Source: a virus
IMG/VR virus record: IMGVR_UViG_3300028598_000006
Span: 1 to 29,346 of that record
Strand: one strand, 5' to 3'
DNA length: 29,346 nucleotides
In this document: in pieces, positions 16,142 through 28,037 of the stretch
Position numbering within the stretch: position 1 is the first letter of the stretch
Layout: each line of letters starts with the position of its first letter
The notes under the pieces: model-generated
What the model saw: the letters and a program-made list of their open reading frames with translations, nothing else
The model's database searches: none
What the model was told of the DNA's origin: nothing
Program-made: the position numbers and the translations under genes

Positions 16142-16398
16142 CACCAACCTGGCCGGGCGTACGTGCTTCCGCCGTAGAGTTGCGCGTAGAGGTTGGCGCG
16201 CTGCTGGTACAATCCTTCCAGCGTCACCCGTAGCTGCGCCAGCTGCGGCCGTGTCACCGTCTGCTCCGTCTGGCCGGTGTTGATGCGGTAGCTTTGCGCC
16301 CCGCTTCCCAGCGCCAGTGCCGCCGTCTCATACTCGGCAATCGCGGTGTCGTGCCACGCGAGTCGTTCCTTCAGCCAAGCTGTATCACGTGCGGTCAT
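16141..16398 (-). CDS. gpW-position head-tail joining protein
   Basis: An 85-residue protein between the terminase and the portal, exactly the place of lambda gene W. It contains an N-terminal helix (TAWLKERLAWHDTAIAEYE), a short beta turn (QSYRINTGQTEQTVTRPQ) and a second helix (LAQLRVTLEGLYQQRANL). This helix-hairpin-helix layout is that of gpW, which fills the portal channel after packaging. The length is slightly above lambda gpW (68). It could also belong to the small DUF6148-type family. ATGA overlap with the terminase gene. Confidence 0.65.
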   Translation of the reverse strand: MTARDTAWLKERLAWHDTAIAEYETAALALGSGAQSYRINTGQTEQTVTRPQLAQLRVTLEGLYQQRANLYAQLYGGSTYARPGW

Positions 16399-18488
16399 GC
16401 TGCTGTCTCAACGAAGAGCTTCTGCTGCTCGACCAGGTCGTAGAACTTGGTCCAGTCCACGTAGTCCATCTCGAACTGGTTGCGGCACACGTCCCAGGCT
16501 ATCAAATCTAGCGCGGCGTTGCTGTAAATCAGAAGGTCCCATAACTCATTCGCCGCGCCGCTCGGTCGGTGCCACTCCCATCCTATACGCTGTCGAGTGG
16601 TCGCGTGCAGCTTCTCCCTTTTCGTTTCCACCGTCAACTCCTTGAGCTGGGCGTCCGTGCAATCTCGCGGCGCGTTGAAGTAGCCGACGGGCTGTTGTCC
16701 CAGTCCGTCCCACCCGCGGCTCAGTCCCGCCTTCCACCGGTCTTTGTATACGTCCACCGTGACACCGAACGCTCGTGTGCCCATGGGAGTGCTGAACTCG
16801 TTGAACTCTTTGTGCCGCGCGGACTTGGGCGGGACGTCTTGTCCCTTGATGGGAAACACCCCGTTTTCGTACTCGCTTGCGAACCCGTACACGACGTCCG
16901 CCCGGTACCCGCTGTCCACCAAAGTGATGGCCGGGCGGTAGATGAGCCCTTCGTCCGTCGTCCAGTTCTGGAACTCCACAAGCTCGCGCAACTTCCCCCA
17001 CGTCTCCGGGTCGTCCAGCTGTTCCGTGTCCCCGACCCACTTGAAGTAGTCGACCAACGCGCAACGCCGGCCGCGCGCCCATCCAAAGATGCCGACGGCG
17101 AGGTTGTCCTTGTGTACGTCCACCGCACACGTCAGCAGCAAGATGCGGCTCCCCATGTGGTCGACCGCGAGCTTGTTTGGGATGGTTCCGTACGCGTACT
17201 CGCGCCGGTGCGTGCTCACCCGCTGGAACGTCAGGCGCTCCCCGCGCTGCTCAAAGGGGCGGCCGAGGACGTTGTTGTAGAACACCTGGAGCTTGAAGAT
17301 GTCGCGTACCCGGTCGTGCTCCACGTCCCAAGCCTCCAGCCATAGCTTCACGCAGCTCTCCCACGACTGCATCCCCACCGGCGAGTAGAGGGCGGAGACG
17401 TGGTAGCTGCGGTTCTGTGGGCTGGTCGGCGTCGCCGTCGGCTTCCACTCCGCCCCGTACTCCGGGCTCAACAGCTTCGTCTTGTCGTGGTTCTGGTGCT
17501 CGTGCCCGCATGCTTTGCAAACGTAGCGGACGGAGCCGGGCACGAGGTTCCCGTCGTCATCCAAATCCCAGGTGATGCCGGACACTTCGCCCGTATCGTT
17601 GTTCGACCGCGTCCACGCCAGCGTCTGCTGCGCCTGGCAAGCGAGGCAGCGGACGAAGTACATGCGTTGGTCCCCTTGCTTGTAGAGGTCGTAGATTTTG
17701 CTGGTCTGCGTCTCCAGCGGCGTGCTCACCGCCACGAGCTTCCGGCTGCTTTCGTAGGCCGCGGTCCGGTCGACGCAGAGTTGCCAGGGGTCCCCGTCCT
17801 TCCCCACCTTCTGCGGCCACCCGTCCACCTCGTCGCCGTAGAAGATTTGCATGGACACGGAGCGCATCTTGTTCGCGTTCTGCGCCCCCATGGGGATGAG
17901 GAAGCCGCCACCCTCCCAGTCGATGCGCTTGTCTGTCTTGCCCGTTTTGCGCGTGCTGATGGTGTCGCTGCTCTTGACCAGGTGGGCGAGCCCCGAGTGC
18001 TGGAGCATGGGGGTGATGTAGGAATCCATCCTGTTCTTCGCCAGCTCTGCGTCCGCGGTGACGAGCATGCACGGCGCATTCTTCACGTGCGCGATGGCGT
18101 AGCCGAGGCCGTTCTCCAAGATGCCGACGGTGACGCCAATCTGGACGCCCTTCATCACCGCCACCTGGCGCACCACGGACTCCATGTCTAAACAGTCAAC
18201 GATTTCACGCAGGTACGGCGTGACGTCGAAGCGGTAGTACCCGGGTATCGTGGACACGCTGCTGGGGAGGTACCGGTTCTGCTCCGCCCACTCGCTTGGC
18301 TTCAGGTGCTCAAGCTCGTGGGTGAGGTCGCGCACTTGGTTGGCGAGCCAGGTGAGGTCACCAAGCCCGTCGTCCCGCACCCGCGCTCGACCAACGAACT
18401 CGGGTTCAGCTGTTGAGCTTTGGTGGCGCTGCTCCCCCGCCGCCCGTTGGAGCCAGTGCAGCGACGACCACGTCATAAGTTCGGGCAT
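16395..18488 (-). CDS. Terminase large subunit, lambda GpA-like
   Basis: A 697-residue packaging motor and nuclease. The ATPase half has a deviant P-loop KGVQIGVTVG (Lys at its start, as in lambda gpA KSARVGYS) and a Walker B-like FYGDEVDGW. Two Cys pairs (RCLACQ and VCKACGHEH) suggest a zinc site. The nuclease half has LTCAVDVHKDNLAVGIFGWA and ALVDYFKW, with a further Asp in ITLVDSGYRADVVYG. The start is set at ATG 18488; TTG 18491 and ATG 18473 are also possible. All give a long overlap (more than 65 bases) with the small-subunit gene, so the true start may be further in. Confidence 0.93.
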   Translation of the reverse strand: MPELMTWSSLHWLQRAAGEQRHQSSTAEPEFVGRARVRDDGLGDLTWLANQVRDLTHELEHLKPSEWAEQNRYLPSSVSTIPGYYRFDVTPYLREIVDCLDMESVVRQVAVMKGVQIGVTVGILENGLGYAIAHVKNAPCMLVTADAELAKNRMDSYITPMLQHSGLAHLVKSSDTISTRKTGKTDKRIDWEGGGFLIPMGAQNANKMRSVSMQIFYGDEVDGWPQKVGKDGDPWQLCVDRTAAYESSRKLVAVSTPLETQTSKIYDLYKQGDQRMYFVRCLACQAQQTLAWTRSNNDTGEVSGITWDLDDDGNLVPGSVRYVCKACGHEHQNHDKTKLLSPEYGAEWKPTATPTSPQNRSYHVSALYSPVGMQSWESCVKLWLEAWDVEHDRVRDIFKLQVFYNNVLGRPFEQRGERLTFQRVSTHRREYAYGTIPNKLAVDHMGSRILLLTCAVDVHKDNLAVGIFGWARGRRCALVDYFKWVGDTEQLDDPETWGKLRELVEFQNWTTDEGLIYRPAITLVDSGYRADVVYGFASEYENGVFPIKGQDVPPKSARHKEFNEFSTPMGTRAFGVTVDVYKDRWKAGLSRGWDGLGQQPVGYFNAPRDCTDAQLKELTVETKREKLHATTRQRIGWEWHRPSGAANELWDLLIYSNAALDLIAWDVCRNQFEMDYVDWTKFYDLVEQQKLFVETAA

Positions 18489-18873
18489 CAAGTCTCTCTC
18501 TCAGGTAGTCCAACATCTCCAACGCCATCTCCTGTCGAATCTGGATGGCGAGCGTCGCCTTGGTCCCGTATTCCTCCGGCGCCCGCTTTTCCAGGTACCA
18601 CTTGGCGGCGTTGAGCGCGGAGCGGTTGTCCGTCCGGTCCGTCATGATGCGCTTCACCGTGTTCTCGGCCGCCGTCGTCTGCTCGGCTTCGATGGCCTGT
18701 ATCTCCAGGTCGAACTCGTACTTCGGACCCTCGCCCTCGTGGCGTCCTTGCCGCCGCCAGTTCCACACCGTCTGCCGCGTCACCCGCGCCCGTTGCGCCG
18801 CACGCGTCAGCTCGCTGCCCTGGCGGAGGTAGCGGATGATGTCGGCGGCCCGTTCTTCGTTGAACTTTGACAT
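18406..18873 (-). CDS. Terminase small subunit candidate (HTH protein)
   Basis: A 155-residue protein immediately before the large terminase gene. The N-terminus has a helix-turn-helix (SELTRAAQRARVTRQTVWNW) preceded by FNEERAADIIRYLRQG, as in phage small terminases. Middle helices (KRIMTDRTDNRSALNAAKWY, then LEKRAPEEYG) are typical of this group, which bind the packaging site and form a ring. The ribosome site is weak. Its end overlaps the large-subunit start. A second HTH gene upstream (18911-19696) also resembles a packaging protein, so which one plays the Nu1 role is not settled. Confidence 0.78.
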   Translation of the reverse strand: MSKFNEERAADIIRYLRQGSELTRAAQRARVTRQTVWNWRRQGRHEGEGPKYEFDLEIQAIEAEQTTAAENTVKRIMTDRTDNRSALNAAKWYLEKRAPEEYGTKATLAIQIRQEMALEMLDYLRERLDARTYDVVVAALAPTGGGGAAPPKLNS

Positions 18874-20800: not shown

Positions 20801-20985
20801 CGCCGTTCCTCCATCCCCAAGCGCACCGGGTTGCACTCACAACAGCAGAATAGCTTGACGGCATCGTAGACGCTCCCCTCCTTGCGCTCGTAGAAGAGGC
20901 AGGCGAAGTGAATCGTTTTCATTCCGCAGCTCCTGCACCATCGGACAGAGAGCTCTCGCCGCTCGTCTCCAGGCACTAGCTTCAC
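20797..20985 (-). CDS. Small zinc-ribbon-like protein
   Basis: A 62-residue protein, GTG start at 20985 overlapping the previous stop as GTGA. Cysteines in WCRSCGMKTIHFACLF and KLFCCCECNPVRLG suggest a zinc ribbon with two CxxC-type knuckles. The pattern CRSCGMKTIH resembles the CKTCHRKTVH of the gene just upstream, so the two may be diverged duplicates. Function unknown. Confidence 0.55.
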   Translation of the reverse strand: MKLVPGDERRELSVRWCRSCGMKTIHFACLFYERKEGSVYDAVKLFCCCECNPVRLGMEERR

Positions 20986-21191
20986 CGCGGCTGCACCCAC
21001 GTCCGCACTGTCCTGCACCGCTTGCACTGCAGAGCCATGTGGGGCTGGTAGTACCCGGGCTCAGAGTCGGTGAGGACGACTTCGACATGCACCGTCTTTC
21101 GGTGGCACGTCTTGCAGTGGACCGCGGAGACTTCTCGTCCCGTCGCTGTCACCACATCAGGACCAGGGGTGATGTGCAGGTGGCCGCTCAT
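20982..21191 (-). CDS. Small zinc-ribbon-like protein
   Basis: A 69-residue protein whose ATG at 21191 overlaps the stop of queE (ATGA). It has two CxxC pairs, HCKTCHRKTVHVEVVL and LQCKRCRTVRTW, about 27 residues apart, in keeping with a single zinc-ribbon fold. It shares the C-x2-C-x-KT-x-H pattern with the next gene. It may bind nucleic acid or protein; no function can be given. Confidence 0.6.
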   Translation of the reverse strand: MSGHLHITPGPDVVTATGREVSAVHCKTCHRKTVHVEVVLTDSEPGYYQPHMALQCKRCRTVRTWVQPR

Positions 21192-21826
21192 TGGAGGTCC
21201 AGGTACTTGTGGGTCTGCGCGCTCAGGTGCGCCCCTGTCTCCAAGCACGCGGCGACGCAGAGGTCCGTGGCGCGCCCACTCTGGCTCACCGGCTGCAGGT
21301 AGAGCTGGACGCCGTTCGCACGCTGCTCCGGCAGCCACGCATCAATCGCCCGCTCCACGTCCGCCTCCTTGCCTACCACGCACTTCAACTCGTTGGCCCT
21401 GTACAGCACATCATCGCGCACCTTGCGCCCACCTGGCATGTCCCACTTTGGGGAGACGGTGACCCACGTATCATCGTGGACACGTACCGGGTACGTCCCA
21501 CTCGTCTCAAGCGACACGGTGAAGCCGCGGGAGATGAGACTAGAGGTGGCCTCCAGCAAGTCGTACGCCGCCGGCTCCCCACCGGTGATGACGATGTGGT
21601 GAATGCCCGGCTTGGCGCCGTATTGGGCGCGGACGAAGTCCGCCAAGTCCCTACCACGGACCACGGCGAGGATGTCGTGTGCGCCAAAGTCCCACGACTC
21701 CTTCGTGTCGCACCACGGACACCCCACATCACACCCCTGCAGGCGGACGAACACGCTGGGCGCTCCCGTCCACCGGCCTTCGCCTTGGATGGTGGGAAAG
21801 ATTTCTCTGATGCGGAGCTGGCTCAT
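21188..21826 (-). CDS. queE: 7-carboxy-7-deazaguanine synthase (radical SAM)
   Basis: A 212-residue radical-SAM enzyme that converts 6-carboxy-tetrahydropterin (CPH4) to 7-carboxy-7-deazaguanine (CDG). The N-terminus IREIFPTIQGEGRWTGAPS is the QueE hallmark. The iron-sulphur ligands are Cys32, Cys36 and Cys39 in GCDVGCPWCDT (C-x3-C-x2-C, the radical-SAM spacing). VITGGEPAAYD gives the GGEP SAM-binding motif. The length is usual. The ribosome site (GGGTAACGAG) is weak. It lies 32 bases from the divergent plus-strand transglutaminase-like gene, so it either has its own promoter inside that region or is on a message reading antisense through it. Confidence 0.95.
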   Translation of the reverse strand: MSQLRIREIFPTIQGEGRWTGAPSVFVRLQGCDVGCPWCDTKESWDFGAHDILAVVRGRDLADFVRAQYGAKPGIHHIVITGGEPAAYDLLEATSSLISRGFTVSLETSGTYPVRVHDDTWVTVSPKWDMPGGRKVRDDVLYRANELKCVVGKEADVERAIDAWLPEQRANGVQLYLQPVSQSGRATDLCVAACLETGAHLSAQTHKYLDLQ

Positions 21827-21858
21827 CTCGTTACCCTGTATCGGTGGGGGGTTTGGGA

Positions 21859-22425
21859 ATGAAGGATTGGTTCGTGCGGCTGTTTTATCGTCGCTTCTAC
21901 TGGCTCGTGCCGCTCTGGTACGGCCTCTCTCTCAACGTGACACGGATGCGGCGTTGGCCGCCATTGCCAAAGTTCTACAACGAGCGTGAAATAGCGACGG
22001 AGTTGGCGTGGGGGAAGAACTGGCGGCCCGACCCGTTGCGCGGACTGTTGGACGTGGTGATGGACCCGCGCAAGCTCCAGCACCGCATCGAGTGCGGAGA
22101 GACGGAGTTTGGGGACTGCGACGACCATGCACTCTACTGGGCGACGGCGCTGCTGCAGAGCGGAATGGCGGACAGGGCGTGGCTGGGGACCGTTTGGTAC
22201 GGGGAGGGCCACGTCGTCTGCGTCTACCAGCGGGGGAAGCTGGCGTACTGGGTGGACTACGGGTTGCCCGCCCACGTCGTCGCCCCGTGGGGCTGGGCGC
22301 ACCTTGTCGCCACCCAGCGCGGGCGCGTGGCCATGTGCGCCGGCATGATGGAGGTCCGTTTGCGGCCAAGTGGCGCGCCCCGGCTGCGGGTATGCCGCGG
22401 GCGGCGCAGCAGCTCCAGCCTGTAG
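21859..22425 (+). CDS. Transglutaminase-like cysteine protease-fold protein
   Basis: The only plus-strand gene in the left 27 kb. ATG 21859 is preferred (188 residues), with GGTGGGGGG seven bases upstream; GTG 21844 is an alternative. The N-terminus is aromatic and hydrophobic (residues 4-24, WFVRLFYRRFYWLVPLWYG), possibly a membrane-touching helix. A Cys-His-Asp triad is visible: Cys87 in FGDCDDHALYWATALL (the GDCDDxA pattern of bacterial transglutaminase-like cysteine proteases), His118 in GEGHVVCVYQ and Asp133 in YWVDYG. It may cut or modify a protein. It converges on queD (six bases away) and diverges from queE, so it looks like a moron gene added to the operon. Confidence 0.7.
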   Translation: MKDWFVRLFYRRFYWLVPLWYGLSLNVTRMRRWPPLPKFYNEREIATELAWGKNWRPDPLRGLLDVVMDPRKLQHRIECGETEFGDCDDHALYWATALLQSGMADRAWLGTVWYGEGHVVCVYQRGKLAYWVDYGLPAHVVAPWGWAHLVATQRGRVAMCAGMMEVRLRPSGAPRLRVCRGRRSSSSL

Positions 22426-22430
22426 AGCGG

Positions 22431-22865
22431 TCAGAGCGCGTACTCCGCGGCGCACTTCCGCGTCTCCTCAACGCGACAACGTGCGAGCCGGAGGCCGTGG
22501 GGTAACACCTCCGGCCCGACGTTGTCGACCAAGTATCGCGCCATGTTCTCGGCCGTGGGATTGAACGGGACCACGGCGATGTCATCCAGGAAAGACCCCT
22601 CAGGCCCGACCGCCGCTAGCAAAAGTTCCAACTTCGGGTCATCCTCCCAAAGAATCATGCGGTGGTCCCAATGTTTCTCAAGCCATTCACAGAGCAGCGA
22701 CTTGATGATGGAGAAGTCCAGGACGCGCCCCACGGTGTCAAGCTCCTCGGCCTCTACGTAGAAATGCACCCGGTAGTTATGCCCGTGGAGGTGTGCGCAT
22801 TTGTTTTCGTGTCCCGTGACGCGGTGTCCGGCCGAGAAGTCGTGGTATCGAGTGGCGAGAATCAC
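22431..22865 (-). CDS. queD: 6-carboxytetrahydropterin synthase
   Basis: A 144-residue enzyme that turns dihydroneopterin triphosphate into CPH4 in the preQ0 route. Zinc ligands are His14 (DFSAGHRV) and His27/His29 (LHGHNY). Cys23, four residues before the HGH, is the catalytic thiol. Asp67-His68 in WDHRMIL and Glu134 in RVEET complete the active site of the QueD family. Thus all expected residues are present, in contrast to the second QueD-like gene at 23940. The start overlaps the HNH gene's stop (ATGA). Confidence 0.95.
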   Translation of the reverse strand: MILATRYHDFSAGHRVTGHENKCAHLHGHNYRVHFYVEAEELDTVGRVLDFSIIKSLLCEWLEKHWDHRMILWEDDPKLELLLAAVGPEGSFLDDIAVVPFNPTAENMARYLVDNVGPEVLPHGLRLARCRVEETRKCAAEYAL

Positions 22866-23356
22866 GTCGTTGTTCCTTTGCGACGGTTTTCTTCAGCGGG
22901 CAGGTGCTGAAGGTTTGGGGCCACGTGCAGCCCGCAGACCGTTTTCCCTGCCAACGGGACAATATGGTCGACGTGGTGTCCGCGTGGACACGAGCGGTAG
23001 ACGTTCGCGATGGCCGCATGGTCAGCCCAAGCGGGCGTCGCGCGGCGAATCTTGTGGCTACGTTTGCCGCTCACACGAAACTTGCTGATGTATTTCGCGG
23101 GGTCCCACCACACACCGGCTCGTATGGGAACCAGCAGCGCGCGTCTCCGTGCAACGCGGCGGCAGCGTATCGCAAGACCCTTCGCCTGCTCACGAAACTT
23201 GGGCTCCATCCAGACCGGCGGCTCTTCGGTGTCGAATATGGCGAAGCACTTGAAGGGCCAGCGACCGTCTTGCACGAAGCCGTAATCGAAGAGCGCTTGC
23301 GTTTCAATGTCCGCAAACACAGAAAGAGCAACCGACGCCTCGTTGGACAAAATCAC
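22862..23356 (-). CDS. HNH endonuclease (probable free-standing homing type)
   Basis: A 164-residue protein with a C-terminal HNH domain: HHVDHIVPLAGKTVCGLH followed by APNLQHLPAEENRRKG, with the DH, the second His and the N of the motif in place. Before it, RRATPAWADHAAIANVY is the helix often found in phage HNH enzymes. The N-terminal ~50 residues are not recognised. The GTG start overlaps the folE stop and its own stop overlaps the queD start, so it was inserted with precise coupling into a metabolic operon. Such enzymes usually cut a DNA site and spread the gene. Confidence 0.82.
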   Translation of the reverse strand: MILSNEASVALSVFADIETQALFDYGFVQDGRWPFKCFAIFDTEEPPVWMEPKFREQAKGLAIRCRRVARRRALLVPIRAGVWWDPAKYISKFRVSGKRSHKIRRATPAWADHAAIANVYRSCPRGHHVDHIVPLAGKTVCGLHVAPNLQHLPAEENRRKGTTT

Positions 23357-23943
23357 GCTCCACCGCCGGAGTCCGCCAAATGCCAGAACTCGTCCCGCAC
23401 CGAGTGGTCCTGAAACGCGCCCAGCAACGCCTCAGTCACCATCACGCCGCCCTTGCGGACACCTCGACACGTCATGCACTGGTGGACGCTGCGGACACGT
23501 ACACCCACGCCAAGCGGCGCAAGCGCCCAGCTGAGGGAGTCCGCCACCTGGTGCGTCAGCCGCTCCTGCACCTGTAGACGCGCGGCGTACATCTCCACGA
23601 GCCGCCCGAGCTTGGAGAGGCCAACAACGACACCGCTCTCCCCCGGGATGTATCCGACGTCCACGTGTCCCATGAACGGGAGCATATGGTGCTCGCACGT
23701 GCTCGTCATCGGGTAGCCGGCCAGGACAATCATCTGGTCGTAGGCGATGTTCGAGAAGCCGTTCTCGCCGCTCGTGGTCTTGAGCACGTCTATGGCGTTC
23801 TTCCCGTACCCGTCCAACATCTCCGCCCATGCGCGCGCAACGCGCGCCGGGGTGTCCGCCAGCCCCTCGCGCGTCGGGTCCTCGCCCACGCCCCGCAGCA
23901 AGTCGTAGACCGCTTGCTGCACCGCAGTCGTATCAAATGTCAT
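23353..23943 (-). CDS. folE: GTP cyclohydrolase I
   Basis: A 196-residue enzyme that makes dihydroneopterin triphosphate from GTP, the first step to preQ0. It has DPTREGLADTPARVARAW, then STCEHHMLPFMGHVDVGYIP with Cys83 and His86 as zinc ligands, GLSKLGRLVEMYARRLQ-like text (here AARLQVQERLT) and QCMTCRGVRKGG holding the third zinc cysteine. The length is close to FolE type IA. It overlaps the second QueD-like gene by ATGA. A phage copy would raise the supply of precursor in the cell. Confidence 0.95.
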   Translation of the reverse strand: MTFDTTAVQQAVYDLLRGVGEDPTREGLADTPARVARAWAEMLDGYGKNAIDVLKTTSGENGFSNIAYDQMIVLAGYPMTSTCEHHMLPFMGHVDVGYIPGESGVVVGLSKLGRLVEMYAARLQVQERLTHQVADSLSWALAPLGVGVRVRSVHQCMTCRGVRKGGVMVTEALLGAFQDHSVRDEFWHLADSGGGA

Positions 23944-24380
23944 CCCTCGCTGGCCTCCACGTCAAAGTTCTCGCGCACTCGGACAGCGAACTGGACGTCG
24001 GGGAAGGCCTCGCGGAGCTTGCGGCGCAAGATGCGAGCCATGTTCTCTGTCGTGGCGCGCACGCCCTCAAAGTCCTTGTGAACCGACAGGTTCGTGTTGT
24101 CCCACATGGCAACCATGTCCCGCAGCACCTCGTCGTCCACGACCCAAGACTGTCCACCGCGCTCGCACTCGCTGGTCAACAGCTCGTTGGCACGCGCCGA
24201 GATTGAGATTTCAAAGTTGTGGCCGTGCGAGTCCCGCAGGACATCACACAAGCCGGTGAAACCATTGAAGTAGTCGCCCGTGACGGCCGCGGCCATCGCC
24301 TTGTCGTGGGCGTCGTAGGTCCGTTCGTCGTTGAAGTGGCACGACTGGATGGTGAAAGCTCGGTTGTACTCCACGGTCAT
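23940..24380 (-). CDS. QueD-fold paralogue lacking the catalytic Cys and His
   Basis: A 146-residue protein of the 6-pyruvoyl-tetrahydropterin synthase/QueD fold. Zinc ligands His15 (QSCHFNDERTY) and His52/His54 (DSHGHNFEIS) are present, and TTENMARILRRKL plus RVREN match the C-terminal helix and glutamate. The catalytic Cys expected four residues before HGH is Leu48 (the nearest Cys is 45), and the Asp-His pair reads WDNTNL, with Asn replacing the His. So it can hardly act as an ordinary CPH4 synthase. It may carry out another step on a deazaguanine or pterin. It is coupled to the ArcS-like gene and to folE by four-base overlaps. Confidence 0.8.
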   Translation of the reverse strand: MTVEYNRAFTIQSCHFNDERTYDAHDKAMAAAVTGDYFNGFTGLCDVLRDSHGHNFEISISARANELLTSECERGGQSWVVDDEVLRDMVAMWDNTNLSVHKDFEGVRATTENMARILRRKLREAFPDVQFAVRVRENFDVEASEG

Positions 24381-25345
24381 TCTCCCGATGGGTGTTGTCG
24401 CATGGCCTGTTCGAGCCTATCGAGGTGCTCGGGCAGCGTCAGGTTCTCATAGGTGTCCCGTGGGTGCGAGCCCAAAACGAAGTGGACACCTTCCGCCTCC
24501 AGCGTGTTGGCTTCCTGCAGCCCACGGCGCACCGCGGACGCGTAGAAGTCCGAGTAGACGACGATAGCATCATAGGCATGGCGGCTGAAGTACCACCGCA
24601 CCGTGTCCGTCACCCGCTGCAGGTTGGGAATCCCGCTATCGTACAGCGGCATGTCGTCCCATAGCTCCTGCGGCACGAGGCCGAGGACGCCGGTGGCGAT
24701 GATGAGGTGCCAACTATTGTCAGGCAGCCGCCGCATCACCTCACGGTGCGTCGCGCTCGGGTACGGCTTCTCCGCCGCGCACGGGACAATCACGCAGCGC
24801 GACTTGAACGTGTCGTAGGCCTCCAGCCTTGCCCGGTACTGCTGCACCTCGGGGCGGAAGAAGGAGCCGTTGCACGTCACCGGAAACTCTCGCTTCAACC
24901 GCTGCCCGCGCAACGGGCACGGCCACTCCGTGTCTGCGCAGTACAGCGCATGAACCAGCTCGGGGCGGCACGTGCTCGCAATCTCGACCACCCGGCGCTT
25001 GTCCCGCGCCCGTTTGTACTCTCCGAGCCAGTCGAAGGTTTCGCAATCCCACACCCTAGTGAAGCCGACGGTCCTTACGTGGTGACCGAGGTCAGCAAGG
25101 AACGGCGCCCATGTGGACGGCACGTTGTCGAGCGCGAACGGCAGCGATGCGCACGCCAGCATCTTGAACAGGGCGAGCCAGCCATCGTACTCATGGGCGT
25201 AGCCGTGCCCACTGCTCCCATCCAAGACCAGCGACAGGTCCAGGCTTCTCGGGGACACCTCGTAGGTGTCCAAGCTGCTTTCTCCATCGGACGCGGGCTT
25301 GCTGCTCCTCGCTGAGGTACCAATCGACTTCGTCTCTGAGGTCAT
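24377..25345 (-). CDS. ArcS core-domain-like protein, predicted 7-deazaguanine tailoring enzyme
   Basis: A 322-residue protein from ATG 25345 (GGGAG six bases before; GTG 25357 and GTG 25258 are other candidates). Around residues 186-200 it reads VIVPCAAEKPYPSATH, close to the PC-x3-KPY-S-H signature of the archaeosine synthase core (DUF5591). LGLVPQELWDDMPLYDSG at 221-238 is also typical of that domain. In archaea ArcS adds lysine to preQ0 in tRNA on the way to archaeosine. Here the neighbours are DNA-modification genes, so the substrate would be preQ0 in DNA. The N-terminal ~60 residues (Ser-rich) and the 155-base overlap with dpdA make the start unsure. No archaeosine-forming radical SAM partner is seen in the window. 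Confidence 0.72.
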   Translation of the reverse strand: MTSETKSIGTSARSSKPASDGESSLDTYEVSPRSLDLSLVLDGSSGHGYAHEYDGWLALFKMLACASLPFALDNVPSTWAPFLADLGHHVRTVGFTRVWDCETFDWLGEYKRARDKRRVVEIASTCRPELVHALYCADTEWPCPLRGQRLKREFPVTCNGSFFRPEVQQYRARLEAYDTFKSRCVIVPCAAEKPYPSATHREVMRRLPDNSWHLIIATGVLGLVPQELWDDMPLYDSGIPNLQRVTDTVRWYFSRHAYDAIVVYSDFYASAVRRGLQEANTLEAEGVHFVLGSHPRDTYENLTLPEHLDRLEQAMRQHPSGE

Positions 25346-26018
25346 GTTTGCTCCCACGGACGCTCATGCGCCCTTTTGCATTGCCCTTCATCGTCCGCCA
25401 CGTCCCCCACTTGGTTGGCCCAGACTCCCACGAGGAGGAGTCCACCGAGTGGAATGGCAGCGCACGCAAGCACGCCGCATCGACCACCGCGAAGCCGTGG
25501 ACCTTGGCGGGCCAAACGCGGGACAGGCATTGGTTGAAGAACCGTATCTTTTCATTCCTGTGCATCGGCTTCCCGCCGGTGCCGGACACAGCGATTTTCG
25601 GGTACGTCTCGCCCAGGTGCAGCAACACCTCCTCCGGCTCCCCCTTGTGATACGTGGGAATGGCGCGGACGCCTTGCCGCCACATCTCCTCCACGTTGCG
25701 CAAGCCGGCCTCCCAGCTGTCGATGACGTCCAAGCCGAACACCTCCACCAGCGTCGGGTCCACCGCCTGCAGCTCCAGGCAGACGTTGATGAACTCCTGC
25801 AGGTCGATGCGCTTGCCGGACTTGAACGCGGAGAACGCGCCCGAGTCCATCACCCAGTCCCGGACATCGTACTCGTGCCGGCTCTTGAGCCACTGCTTGA
25901 GGTAGACGTAGCTGACCAGGACGGAAGGCAGGTTCTCCGGCTTCACACCTGGTCGCGGGCCGAGCCCGGTGCGCAGGGCATGCGGCGGTCCACTGTAGGC
26001 GAGCCGGATGTGCGTCAC
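25191..26018 (-). CDS. dpdA: DNA 7-deazaguanine transglycosylase, DpdA-like
   Basis: A 275-residue TGT-like enzyme expected to exchange guanine in DNA for preQ0 or a derivative. GTG 26018 overlaps the preceding stop (GTGA). WVMDSGAFSAFKSGKRID holds Asp58, matching the DSGxF motif of the TGT superfamily. VFGLDVIDSWEAGLRN holds Asp97 and Asp100, and ECG/AVSG-type residues follow in TYPKIAVSGTGGKPMH. The C-terminus has SVRGSKHDLRDEVDWYLSEE, a pattern I associate with phage DpdA. The TGT zinc site is not present, as in other short DpdA forms. The subfamily (DpdA1-4) was not determined. Confidence 0.85.
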   Translation of the reverse strand: MTHIRLAYSGPPHALRTGLGPRPGVKPENLPSVLVSYVYLKQWLKSRHEYDVRDWVMDSGAFSAFKSGKRIDLQEFINVCLELQAVDPTLVEVFGLDVIDSWEAGLRNVEEMWRQGVRAIPTYHKGEPEEVLLHLGETYPKIAVSGTGGKPMHRNEKIRFFNQCLSRVWPAKVHGFAVVDAACLRALPFHSVDSSSWESGPTKWGTWRTMKGNAKGRMSVRGSKHDLRDEVDWYLSEEQQARVRWRKQLGHLRGVPEKPGPVAGLGWEQWARLRP

Positions 26019-26614
26019 TCCTTGGCCATCCACGTCATCGCAAACTCCACCACCGCGGCACCCGGCAACACCTTCTCGCCCGCCAGGTCGCTCATGCGGT
26101 CGAGGGCCTGGCTCACCGCCTCCCACTGCTCGTCCGAAAAGACGATGGTGTGCTTGTGCTCCCCGTCCAGCCCCTCCTCGGCCGCGGGCTCCCAGTTGCC
26201 CTGAAACAAGTTCTCGAAGTCCAAGGACAGCTCCTCGACGTCGAAGCCTTTCTCGTTCAGGTCCGCCAGCTGCGCCGCCAGCTCAGGCCAGTCCCATGTC
26301 GCGAGCTCTGCCGTCCGGTTGTCCGCAATGGCGAACGCCGTGGCCTCCACCGCCGTCTCGTCCACGACAACGGCCGCCACGTGCGTCCATCCCAGGCGCC
26401 GGGCTGCAGCGACGCGGCCATTGCCGGCGCGGACGACCATTCCCTCTCTCTGCACAACGACGGGGTGACGCTGCTTGAACTTCTGGAGGCTCTTGCAGAT
26501 GGCGGTGATGTTGCGCTCGTCGTGTGCCCGCGCGTTGTGGGGGTCGATGTTCAGCTCGTCTATCGCAATCGCAAGCGGCTGCAGGTCTGCGATGATGTTG
26601 TCCGACTCGTTCAT
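26015..26614 (-). CDS. ParB-like protein, possible DpdB counterpart
   Basis: A 199-residue protein from ATG 26614 (overlapping the queC stop as ATGA). Residues about 13-90 form a ParB/Srx-like domain: PLAIAIDELNIDPHNARAHD, then KSLQKFKQRHPVVVQREGM and VVRAGNGRVAAARRLGW, in which GNGR corresponds to the nucleotide-binding loop. The bacterial dpd island has DpdB, a ParB-like protein that acts with DpdA in inserting preQ0. Here a ParB-like gene is coupled directly to dpdA. That supports, but does not prove, a shared role. The alternatives are a partition-type or methyltransferase-associated ParB domain, which is frequent in phages. Confidence 0.72.
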   Translation of the reverse strand: MNESDNIIADLQPLAIAIDELNIDPHNARAHDERNITAICKSLQKFKQRHPVVVQREGMVVRAGNGRVAAARRLGWTHVAAVVVDETAVEATAFAIADNRTAELATWDWPELAAQLADLNEKGFDVEELSLDFENLFQGNWEPAAEEGLDGEHKHTIVFSDEQWEAVSQALDRMSDLAGEKVLPGAAVVEFAMTWMAKE

Positions 26615-27282
26615 GCCGCGTACTGCGTCGGGTCCGCGTTGCCGCTGTCTCGGAATGCTTCCTTGCGTTCCTGGCATGCGCCGCACTTGCCGCAATGGAA
26701 CTCCCCGCCCTCGTAGCACGTCCACGTCAGCGCGTAGGGGACGCTGAGCTTGGAGCCGATGGCGGCGATGTCCGTTTTCGTCTTGTGCACGAATGGCGTG
26801 AGCAGCTGTATCGCCGTGTCCGTTCCCAGGCATAGCGCGCGCTCGATGGCGGCGGCGAACTGCGGGCGGCAGTCCGGGTAGATGGCGTGGTCGCCCGCGT
26901 GTACGCCAATCGCAACCGCGTCCATGTCCCGCGCCACGGCAACACCCCACGCAACGGACACGAAGATGGCGTTGCGGTTGGGAACGACCGTCGCCTTCAT
27001 GCTCTCGCTCTCATAATGTCCATGCGGCACCGCCACCGCGTCGTCCGTTAGCGCGGAGCCGGACAGGTACGGCCGCAGCACCGACAAATCAATGATGTCG
27101 TGGGGCACGTCGTTCGCGGCTGCCAGCTTGCGCGCAAACTCCAGCTCCCGCCGGTGCCGCTGCCCGTAGTCGAACGAGAGCGCCTGCACCTCGTACCCGT
27201 TGTGGAGCAGCCAGTGGAGCAGGGTGGCGCTGTCCATGCCGCCGCTAACAACGGCGAGCGCGTGGGGTGGGTTTGGGGCCAT
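26611..27282 (-). CDS. queC: 7-cyano-7-deazaguanine (preQ0) synthase
   Basis: A 223-residue ATP-dependent enzyme that turns CDG into preQ0. The PP-loop SGGMDSATLLHWLL is at residues 13-26. The zinc cluster at the C-terminus has four Cys in TCYEGGEFHCGKCGACQERK. IGVHAGDHAIYPDCRPQF is typical of QueC. No Gat-QueC fusion is seen. The start ATG 27282 has no ribosome site, being preceded by CACCCCCCGTAT; the message may be leaderless or the first gene of an operon whose promoter is in the region to the right. This is the first gene of the leftward block. Confidence 0.95.
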   Translation of the reverse strand: MAPNPPHALAVVSGGMDSATLLHWLLHNGYEVQALSFDYGQRHRRELEFARKLAAANDVPHDIIDLSVLRPYLSGSALTDDAVAVPHGHYESESMKATVVPNRNAIFVSVAWGVAVARDMDAVAIGVHAGDHAIYPDCRPQFAAAIERALCLGTDTAIQLLTPFVHKTKTDIAAIGSKLSVPYALTWTCYEGGEFHCGKCGACQERKEAFRDSGNADPTQYAA

Positions 27283-27480
27283 ATACGGGGGGTGTATCAG
27301 GCCAGACCCGAAAAAGCGAGGTCAAATGAGCCCTTTTGGACGGCCCCGATGGGGTTTGTTACATTGTACGTATACAAGGCCACTGGCCGCCCGGGGTAGA
27401 GCTAGCCCAAACCCACCCGGACCCACCCAGCCCCTTGGCTCCTTCACAACTAAAAAGAACCCGCTAGTAGGCAACGGCGA
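27283..27480. other. Non-coding region upstream of queC, possible control region
   Basis: A stretch without a convincing gene between the leftward and rightward blocks. It contains an AT-richer island, two small palindromic sites (listed separately) and a short CCCC-GAT-GGGG stem near 27344-27354. The promoters for both blocks are expected here or just beyond, but I see no box pair close to the sigma-70 consensus on either strand. A TTGACC (minus, 27325-27320) is followed 20 bases later by TGATAC, which is too far apart to be convincing. Confidence 0.4.
27364..27388. promoter_or_regulatory. Adjacent inverted repeats, possible operator
   Basis: TTGTA-CGTA-TACAA (27364-27377) is a perfect inverted repeat with a four-base spacer. 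It is directly followed by GGCCA-C-TGGCC (27378-27388), another perfect one. They lie in the only AT-rich patch of a GC-rich gap, between divergent gene blocks, as expected for repressor or activator sites. The function is inferred from shape and place only. Confidence 0.3.
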
Positions 27481-27660
27481 AAAGAGGTGGGGCGAGGATG
27501 CAAGATTTCCCCCCACCGGTTGGACGACAACCAACACGCCACGCAGAAACGGTGCTCAAGCGCAAGCACGTACCACCGGGACAGAGCCAGACGACACTTT
27601 AGGTTTGAAGCGGAGTAGGCATACGAGGCGCCGGTGGGCGCCCAGCCGAAACGACAGGTA

Positions 27661-27708
27661 GCCGGACACGCAATGGCCCCGCGGGATGCGGGAGCCGCGT
27701 GCAACGGC
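27661..27708 (+). other. Compound hairpin, 17 base pairs
   Basis: Four stacked stems in 48 bases: GCCG/CGGC, CACGC/GCGTG, GGC/GCC and CCCGC/GCGGG, separated by GA against CAA, a bulge AAT and a bulge A, with the loop GGGAT. All 17 pairs are Watson-Crick. It lies inside the gene-free region and is the longest fold there. Confidence 0.6.
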
Positions 27709-27790
27709 AAGCGAGCGGAGACTACGCCGTCGAGCGTACGAGCAAGCGTACCGATGAACCGCGCGAAGTGGAAGCAACTGGACATGACGC

Positions 27791-27827
27791 GGAGTAGACG
27801 CAACCCGGGCACGGTGTTGCGTCCTCC
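27791..27827 (+). other. Hairpin, 15 base pairs
   Basis: GGAG, TA bulge, GACGCAAC, CCG, loop GGCA, CGG, T bulge, GTTGCGTC, CTCC. The central eight pairs are perfect. No U-run follows, so it is not a standard terminator. It could instead be an RNase III or regulatory structure ahead of the small genes. Confidence 0.6.
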
Positions 27828-27829
27828 CT

Positions 27830-27861
27830 CGTGCGGCTGAGCATTTACGTTCGGACGCACG
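27830..27861 (+). promoter_or_regulatory. Leader hairpin just before ribosome site
   Basis: CGTGCG/CGCACG, a G-A mismatch, then CTGAGC/GTTCGG with two G-U pairs and the loop ATTTAC. It ends two bases before GGAGG (27864-27868) of the first rightward gene (ATG 27873). Its place suggests control of stability or translation. The G-U pairs show it works in plus-strand RNA only. Confidence 0.5.
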
Positions 27862-27872
27862 ATGGAGGAAAC

Positions 27873-28037
27873 ATGAAACGAACAACCAAACGAAACCGAT
27901 ACATTGCGCCGCCCACTGCAGAGCTGAAGCGGCTGTACGAACTGGAAGAGATTCCCGAGCACGAAATCACCATTGGAGAAGCCGAGGAGCTTTACGAGCT
28001 GCAGCAAGCTGTCGAGCGAGGGCTGATATGCAACTGA
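27873..28037 (+). CDS. Small hypothetical early-region protein
   Basis: A 54-residue protein with ATG 27873 behind a clear GGAGGAAAC ribosome site. It is basic at the start (KRTTKRNRYIAPP) and helical and acidic afterwards (ELKRLYELEEIPEHEI, then GEAEELYELQQAVER). No domain recognised. The first of the rightward genes, directly after the structured region. Confidence 0.65.
   Translation: MKRTTKRNRYIAPPTAELKRLYELEEIPEHEITIGEAEELYELQQAVERGLICN

Follow-up and report, generated by a model that had tools for sequence, protein, structure and literature searches.

A probable translational-control element at the end of a 5' leader between two divergent gene blocks of an uncultured phage

What is encoded in a long gap between two divergent gene blocks of a phage genome, when the gap is rich in predicted RNA stems and carries no gene? 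The question is raised by the window analysed here, a virus record of 29,346 bases in which the tail, sheath and terminase genes lie on the minus strand. On that same strand there is also a 7-deazaguanine (queuosine-type) cluster (20837-27282, with queC, tgt-like, DUF5591, two PTPS/queD-like, folE-like and queE-like genes), whose last point is the start of queC at 27282. From 27873 to the end of the record the plus strand encodes small genes without family matches, the first of them (27873-28037) specifying a protein of 54 amino acids. The phage is uncultured and tailed, and this rightward block is probably its early one, a label that we apply because its direction is opposite to that of the structural genes. 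The two blocks are separated by 590 nt (27283-27872) without a supported gene, which agrees with a first-pass annotation that had seen about 380 gene-free bases here. That annotation had proposed a large structured RNA at 27484-27862, to be understood as a new phage ncRNA, an unusual leader or perhaps an origin of replication. A search of the window for tRNA and tmRNA genes was negative, and a sigma-70 promoter scan recognised none.

The region does fold better than shuffled sequence. On the plus strand, 27484-27862 reaches -158.6 kcal/mol against -141.5 +/- 5.3 for the shuffles (z -3.21, with none of 100 shuffles as good; z -3.46 in a repeat run), and the signal is weaker on the minus strand (z -2.28). 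However, nearly all of this signal is contributed by the final 84 nt of the gap (27789-27872), which taken alone give z -5.65 on the plus strand and -3.39 on the minus strand, whereas 27484-27788 is barely unusual (z -2.17 and -1.85, respectively). All the stems that had been listed in the first pass are present, but only the last one, together with its neighbour, is exceptional: those in 27484-27788, including a 12-bp CACGC..GCGTG hairpin, are ordinary for GC-rich sequence.

A relative of this locus was found through queC, whose best match in IMG/VR (69% identity) lies in contig 3300010392_002424, hereafter L002. Its layout is that of the window, with que genes pointing one way, a gap, and small genes pointing the other way. 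Two blocks are common to the two gaps: a 30-nt upstream element and the ~113 nt that immediately precede the start codon (72% identity, E 4e-10). The module formed by the final 84 nt sits directly before a start codon in L002 too, and since the gene that follows it there is unrelated to that of the window, it is the leader that is conserved and not the gene. In L002 the module also folds unusually well, with z -4.78 on the mRNA strand and -1.95 on the opposite one. Two other hits, L084 and L134, correspond to the same locus as L002, and the comparison of the module is one of two sequences. The hunt for more members was unproductive: searching with the protein of the first plus-strand gene gave no relatives, protein-led searches with QueC, the terminase and QueD retrieved the module only in L002 (and in its equivalents), blastn with the region as query gave only chance matches among phage records, and the other matches of module-based DNA-pattern scans over viral and genome contigs were coding sequence or unrelated hairpins. 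Among the strays we rejected L104, the best of them (32 bits), which is a long and perfect inverted repeat that no start codon follows, and L114, which lies in frame within a reading frame. Consistent with the first-pass view that the region fits no recognised structured RNA, a scan of the window and L002 with Rfam 15 gave no family above the gathering threshold, preQ1 riboswitches and large phage RNAs included. The motif appears to be uncommon, or confined to phages that have been poorly sampled.

The module is composed of a short G-rich segment, CGGAGU-N-GA, followed by two hairpins and the Shine-Dalgarno (SD) sequence of the first plus-strand gene. The first hairpin, P1 (27799-27821), has 9 pairs and one bulge. 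The second, P2, consists of 20 pairs around one mismatch that is common to both phages, with an upper stem whose arms (27829-27842 and 27849-27862) enclose the loop AUUUAC (27843-27848). At its base, P2 is predicted to pair UCCUCC (27822-27827, identical in L002) with the SD GGAGGA (27864-27869), which ends 3 nt before the AUG at 27873; the first-pass end point, 27862, had left out this key part, namely the SD and the start codon. In the window, the probabilities of the SD:anti-SD pairs are 0.71-1.0, with 0.31 for the outermost U-A pair, and in L002 they are 0.75-0.81, with 0.51 for the outermost one; in the full leader, the probability that the first four SD bases are unpaired is about 0. Moreover, when 22 gene starts of the window were compared, the 84 nt upstream of this one were by far the most stable (-46.4, against -32.3 for the next), and its SD is strong. 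As P2 would take the SD into a stable structure just before the AUG, folding at equilibrium is predicted to close the ribosome-binding site of the first gene, and this occlusion is well supported as a prediction by the pairing probabilities in the two phages.

The pattern of change between the two phages points in the same direction. In the two-sequence alignment 96.5% of the cells are paired, and 6 of the 29 pairs have changed on both sides and are still paired: two of them in P1, in which 100% of the cells are paired, and four in the upper stem of P2. By contrast, the loop of P2 is identical in both phages except for one inserted A, and the tip GCAUUU.CGU is conserved. When the pairing was slid by 1-3 columns, only 38-50% of the cells were paired, with 0-1 double changes, and 7 of 500 shuffles reached the observed level of covariation, a level that rests on one comparison because only two sequences were found. 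A covariance model of the module scores 107 bits on the plus strand of the window, 95 bits in L002 on the strand of the gene, and 27 bits on the minus strand of the window. The two G-U pairs of the last hairpin that had been said to fit the plus strand only are confirmed as T27838-G27853 and G27841-T27850. Taken together, we consider that the last 84 nt of a 5' leader of ~420 nt are probably a cis-acting translational control element or switch, assigned to the SD-occluding translational-control leaders, which is a functional class and not a homology family. Since the structured part ends the leader and contains the SD of the block, the "unusual leader" was the right branch of the first-pass proposal; the compensatory changes hoped for in a relative are found in the 84-nt module and not in the remainder of the region. 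A protein-coding role for the module was discarded, the frames of the two phages differing by indels and their peptides being without match. Elsewhere in the leader, the small upstream ORFs at 27498-27602 and 27784-27840 and their L002 equivalents have nothing in common. L002 carries at 4362-4219 (minus strand; also in L134) a 47-codon upstream ORF with a good SD, and the window ORF that starts at 27498, with 34 codons and a poor SD, occupies a similar place without evident similarity.

Three other readings of the region as a whole have to be weighed against this one. A structured non-coding RNA of ~380 nt is what the overall z of -3.2 to -3.5 and the several local stems would suggest, but the signal lies in the final 84 nt, the remaining 300 nt (z -2.2) have no counterpart in L002, and no Rfam family matches. 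In fact, the diverged spacer of the leader (27452-27788) contains several ordinary stems without evidence of conserved structure; the L002 spacer folds at shuffle level (z -0.74), and in a structure-profile alignment the two spacers resembled each other no more than shuffles do, in structure or in sequence (41 of 60 shuffles scored at least equally), whereas the 3' module, used as a control, scored far above all shuffles. As the spacer shares nothing beyond shuffles, there is no basis for one structured RNA over the whole stretch, the middle of which is neither exceptionally stable nor conserved, and we regard this reading as very improbable. An element acting as DNA, either a replication origin or the operator of a DNA-binding protein in a divergent promoter region, would suit the position between divergent blocks and the inverted repeat made by the 19-nt arms 27822-27840 and 27851-27869. 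For the conserved module, though, the compensatory changes and the G-U pairs, conserved or lineage-specific, which fit plus-strand RNA only, indicate RNA; the covariance model separates the strands as described, the inverted repeat includes the SD, and a search for iterons was negative. We regard both the origin and the operator as improbable, an origin within the spacer being conceivable. A metabolite riboswitch, for example one for 7-deazaguanine given the adjacent queC, has in its favour the neighbouring queuosine-type cluster and the fact that many translational riboswitches use bistable control of the SD as their output. Such a reading seems to us scarcely credible here: the que genes are transcribed the opposite way, upstream of the switch no aptamer-like domain is conserved, and neither preQ1 nor any other Rfam family was matched.

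How would a translational control element of this kind operate? The conserved block begins exactly at CGGAGT, 9 nt 5' of P1, and not at P1 itself. This segment, CGGAGTAGA (27790-27798; 8 of its 9 letters identical in L002), resembles a second copy of the SD and could compete for the anti-SD: GGAG (27791-27794) can pair with CUCC and GA (27797-27798) with UC, two bases being bulged, so that P1 is extended, and all six pairs are possible in both phages. For the module alone, the gap between the open and closed states is 2.8 kcal/mol in the window and 2.6 in L002; it is 4.0 and 6.3 kcal/mol, respectively, in the full leader, and about 5-6 kcal/mol once 60 nt of the gene are added. In simulated nascent RNA the probability of the open state is 0.58-1.0, with the competitor paired at 0.8-0.9, and it drops to less than 0.2 as soon as the SD has been made. 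Random genomic 9-mers substituted for the competitor equal it in 67 of 1500 cases (window) and 49 of 1500 (L002), and shuffles of the window's own G-rich flank equal it in 41%. Since all the pairing letters of the competitor are identical in both phages, the open state shows no covariation. Strand exchange is thus plausible and weaker than occlusion, on account of the flank controls, the gap in longer contexts and the identity of the competitor letters. The folding gives no hint of a sharp thermosensor: a shift in temperature between 10 and 55 C changes the open-closed gap only from 4.9-5.1 to 1.6 kcal/mol. The window leader (27600-27795) has three copies of CGGAG, and the L002 leader, by eye, three as well; these copies may be spares of the competitor or chance.

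In the mechanism that we propose, CGGAGU-N-GA would act as a decoy copy of the SD, taking UCCUCC, extending P1 and freeing the SD. P1 and upper P2 would stay folded in both states, which would therefore differ only in the partner of six bases. The nascent RNA would be open until the SD is transcribed and would then move to the closed arrangement. This could have either of two outcomes: (i) a limited period in which ribosomes can load, after which translation is shut off; or (ii) a switch set by a factor, through ribosomes or through a phage protein that reads the P2 tip GCAUUU.CGU. Tentatively, we suggest a timing switch in a DNA phage that would need no protein, in which a single anti-SD strand would be contested by the true SD and its duplicate (GGAG-UN-GA), the first gene being translated only from fresh RNA and shutting itself off as the leader equilibrates.

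Two other accounts keep the closed hairpin and dispense with the exchange. The module could be a static translational operator in which P2 closes the SD and a protein bound at the GCAUUU.CGU tip stabilises or melts P2, CGGAGU being a ribosome standby site or incidental. Phage coat-protein repressors act on start-site hairpins by binding, and the retention of the P2 tip while the stem below it changed by compensation would be explained. A start-site hairpin melted by a protein is known, too, from phage Mu mom (PMC6483171). We hold this account to be possible but doubtful, as no candidate binding protein was identified and the conserved CGGAGU-N-GA is left unexplained or needs a second role. The other account is a Nus-factor/RNase III leader resembling lambda nutL-N, with a boxA and an antiterminated transcript in which RNase III would cut P2, a 20-pair interrupted helix, leaving the SD free. 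It draws on the conserved upstream element CCCACCCAGCCCCTTGGCTCCTTCACAACT (27422-27451, plus strand), which lies ~420 nt before the AUG, is identical at 25 of 30 positions in L002 (4471-4442, minus strand) and is equally far from the start codon there. The A-over-T excess of the transcribed strand starts near this element in both phages, consistent with a leader that begins there. The element holds a weakly boxA-like string, GCTCCTTCACA: compared with the consensus GYTCTTTAANA (PMC5725501), which is gamma-proteobacterial and may not be that of the host, the boxA-like part TGGCTCYTTCACAACT has one mismatch in L002 (GCTCTTTCACA) and two in the window. However, matches with two mismatches number 18 in the window against 11 expected, the resemblance to boxA is by itself not significant, and neither a boxB partner nor an N-like protein was found, so that we consider a Nus/RNase III leader unlikely. 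The element is a lead in the direction of lambda N; it may be boxA-like, or some promoter or operator.

Among known systems, those nearest by mechanism to the proposed SD-occluding switch would be the MS2 maturation leader and Mu mom, the likeness being one of working only, with no homology claimed. In the MS2 maturation-protein leader, as far as the work of van Meerten et al. (2001) is summarised in PMC6733600, delayed RNA folding controls translation, a transient structure leaving the start site free until the final, closing fold. MS2, however, is an RNA phage with a cloverleaf leader, whereas here a DNA phage carries a pair of hairpins in tandem, with an explicit duplicate of the SD. In Mu mom, too, the start signals of a phage mRNA are hidden in a hairpin that adjoins a second one, but there the stem holds the start codon and is melted by Com (PMC6483171), while here it is the SD that the stem holds, a Com-like protein was not identified and, unlike mom, the hidden gene has no family match. 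The boxA leaders of lambda nutL-N and E. coli suhB (PMC5725501) likewise combine an upstream boxA-like element with control of first-gene translation; in the present case the boxA match is weak, boxB and N are missing from what was found, and the hairpin that closes the SD is the one to which the SD belongs. Finally, the type I toxin mRNAs aapA3 and hok share with the module anti-SD strands that sequester the SD and metastable alternatives, but the nascent state of aapA3 is closed (PMC6733600) and here it is predicted to be open; instead of a small hydrophobic protein, the 54-aa ORF (27873-28037) encodes one that is, by eye, rich in charged residues.

Outside the model phages, the module offers a compact and testable case in which translation would be gated where a phage gene block begins, and its definition (84 nt, a covariance model and two alternative structures) is sufficient for searching larger metagenome collections. 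If the strand exchange were true, it would parallel, in a DNA phage, the delayed-folding control of MS2, with a six-base swap as the moving part. As to the phage itself, no close isolate was found when the terminase (16395-18491, minus strand) was compared with isolate records, the nearest matches being to Shewanella, Vibrio and Acinetobacter phages (45-49%); a tail sheath gene is also present. The occurrence of a que cluster in a tail-sheath phage suggests a 7-deazaguanine-type modification of its DNA, of the sort that PMC6884629 reports in other phages.
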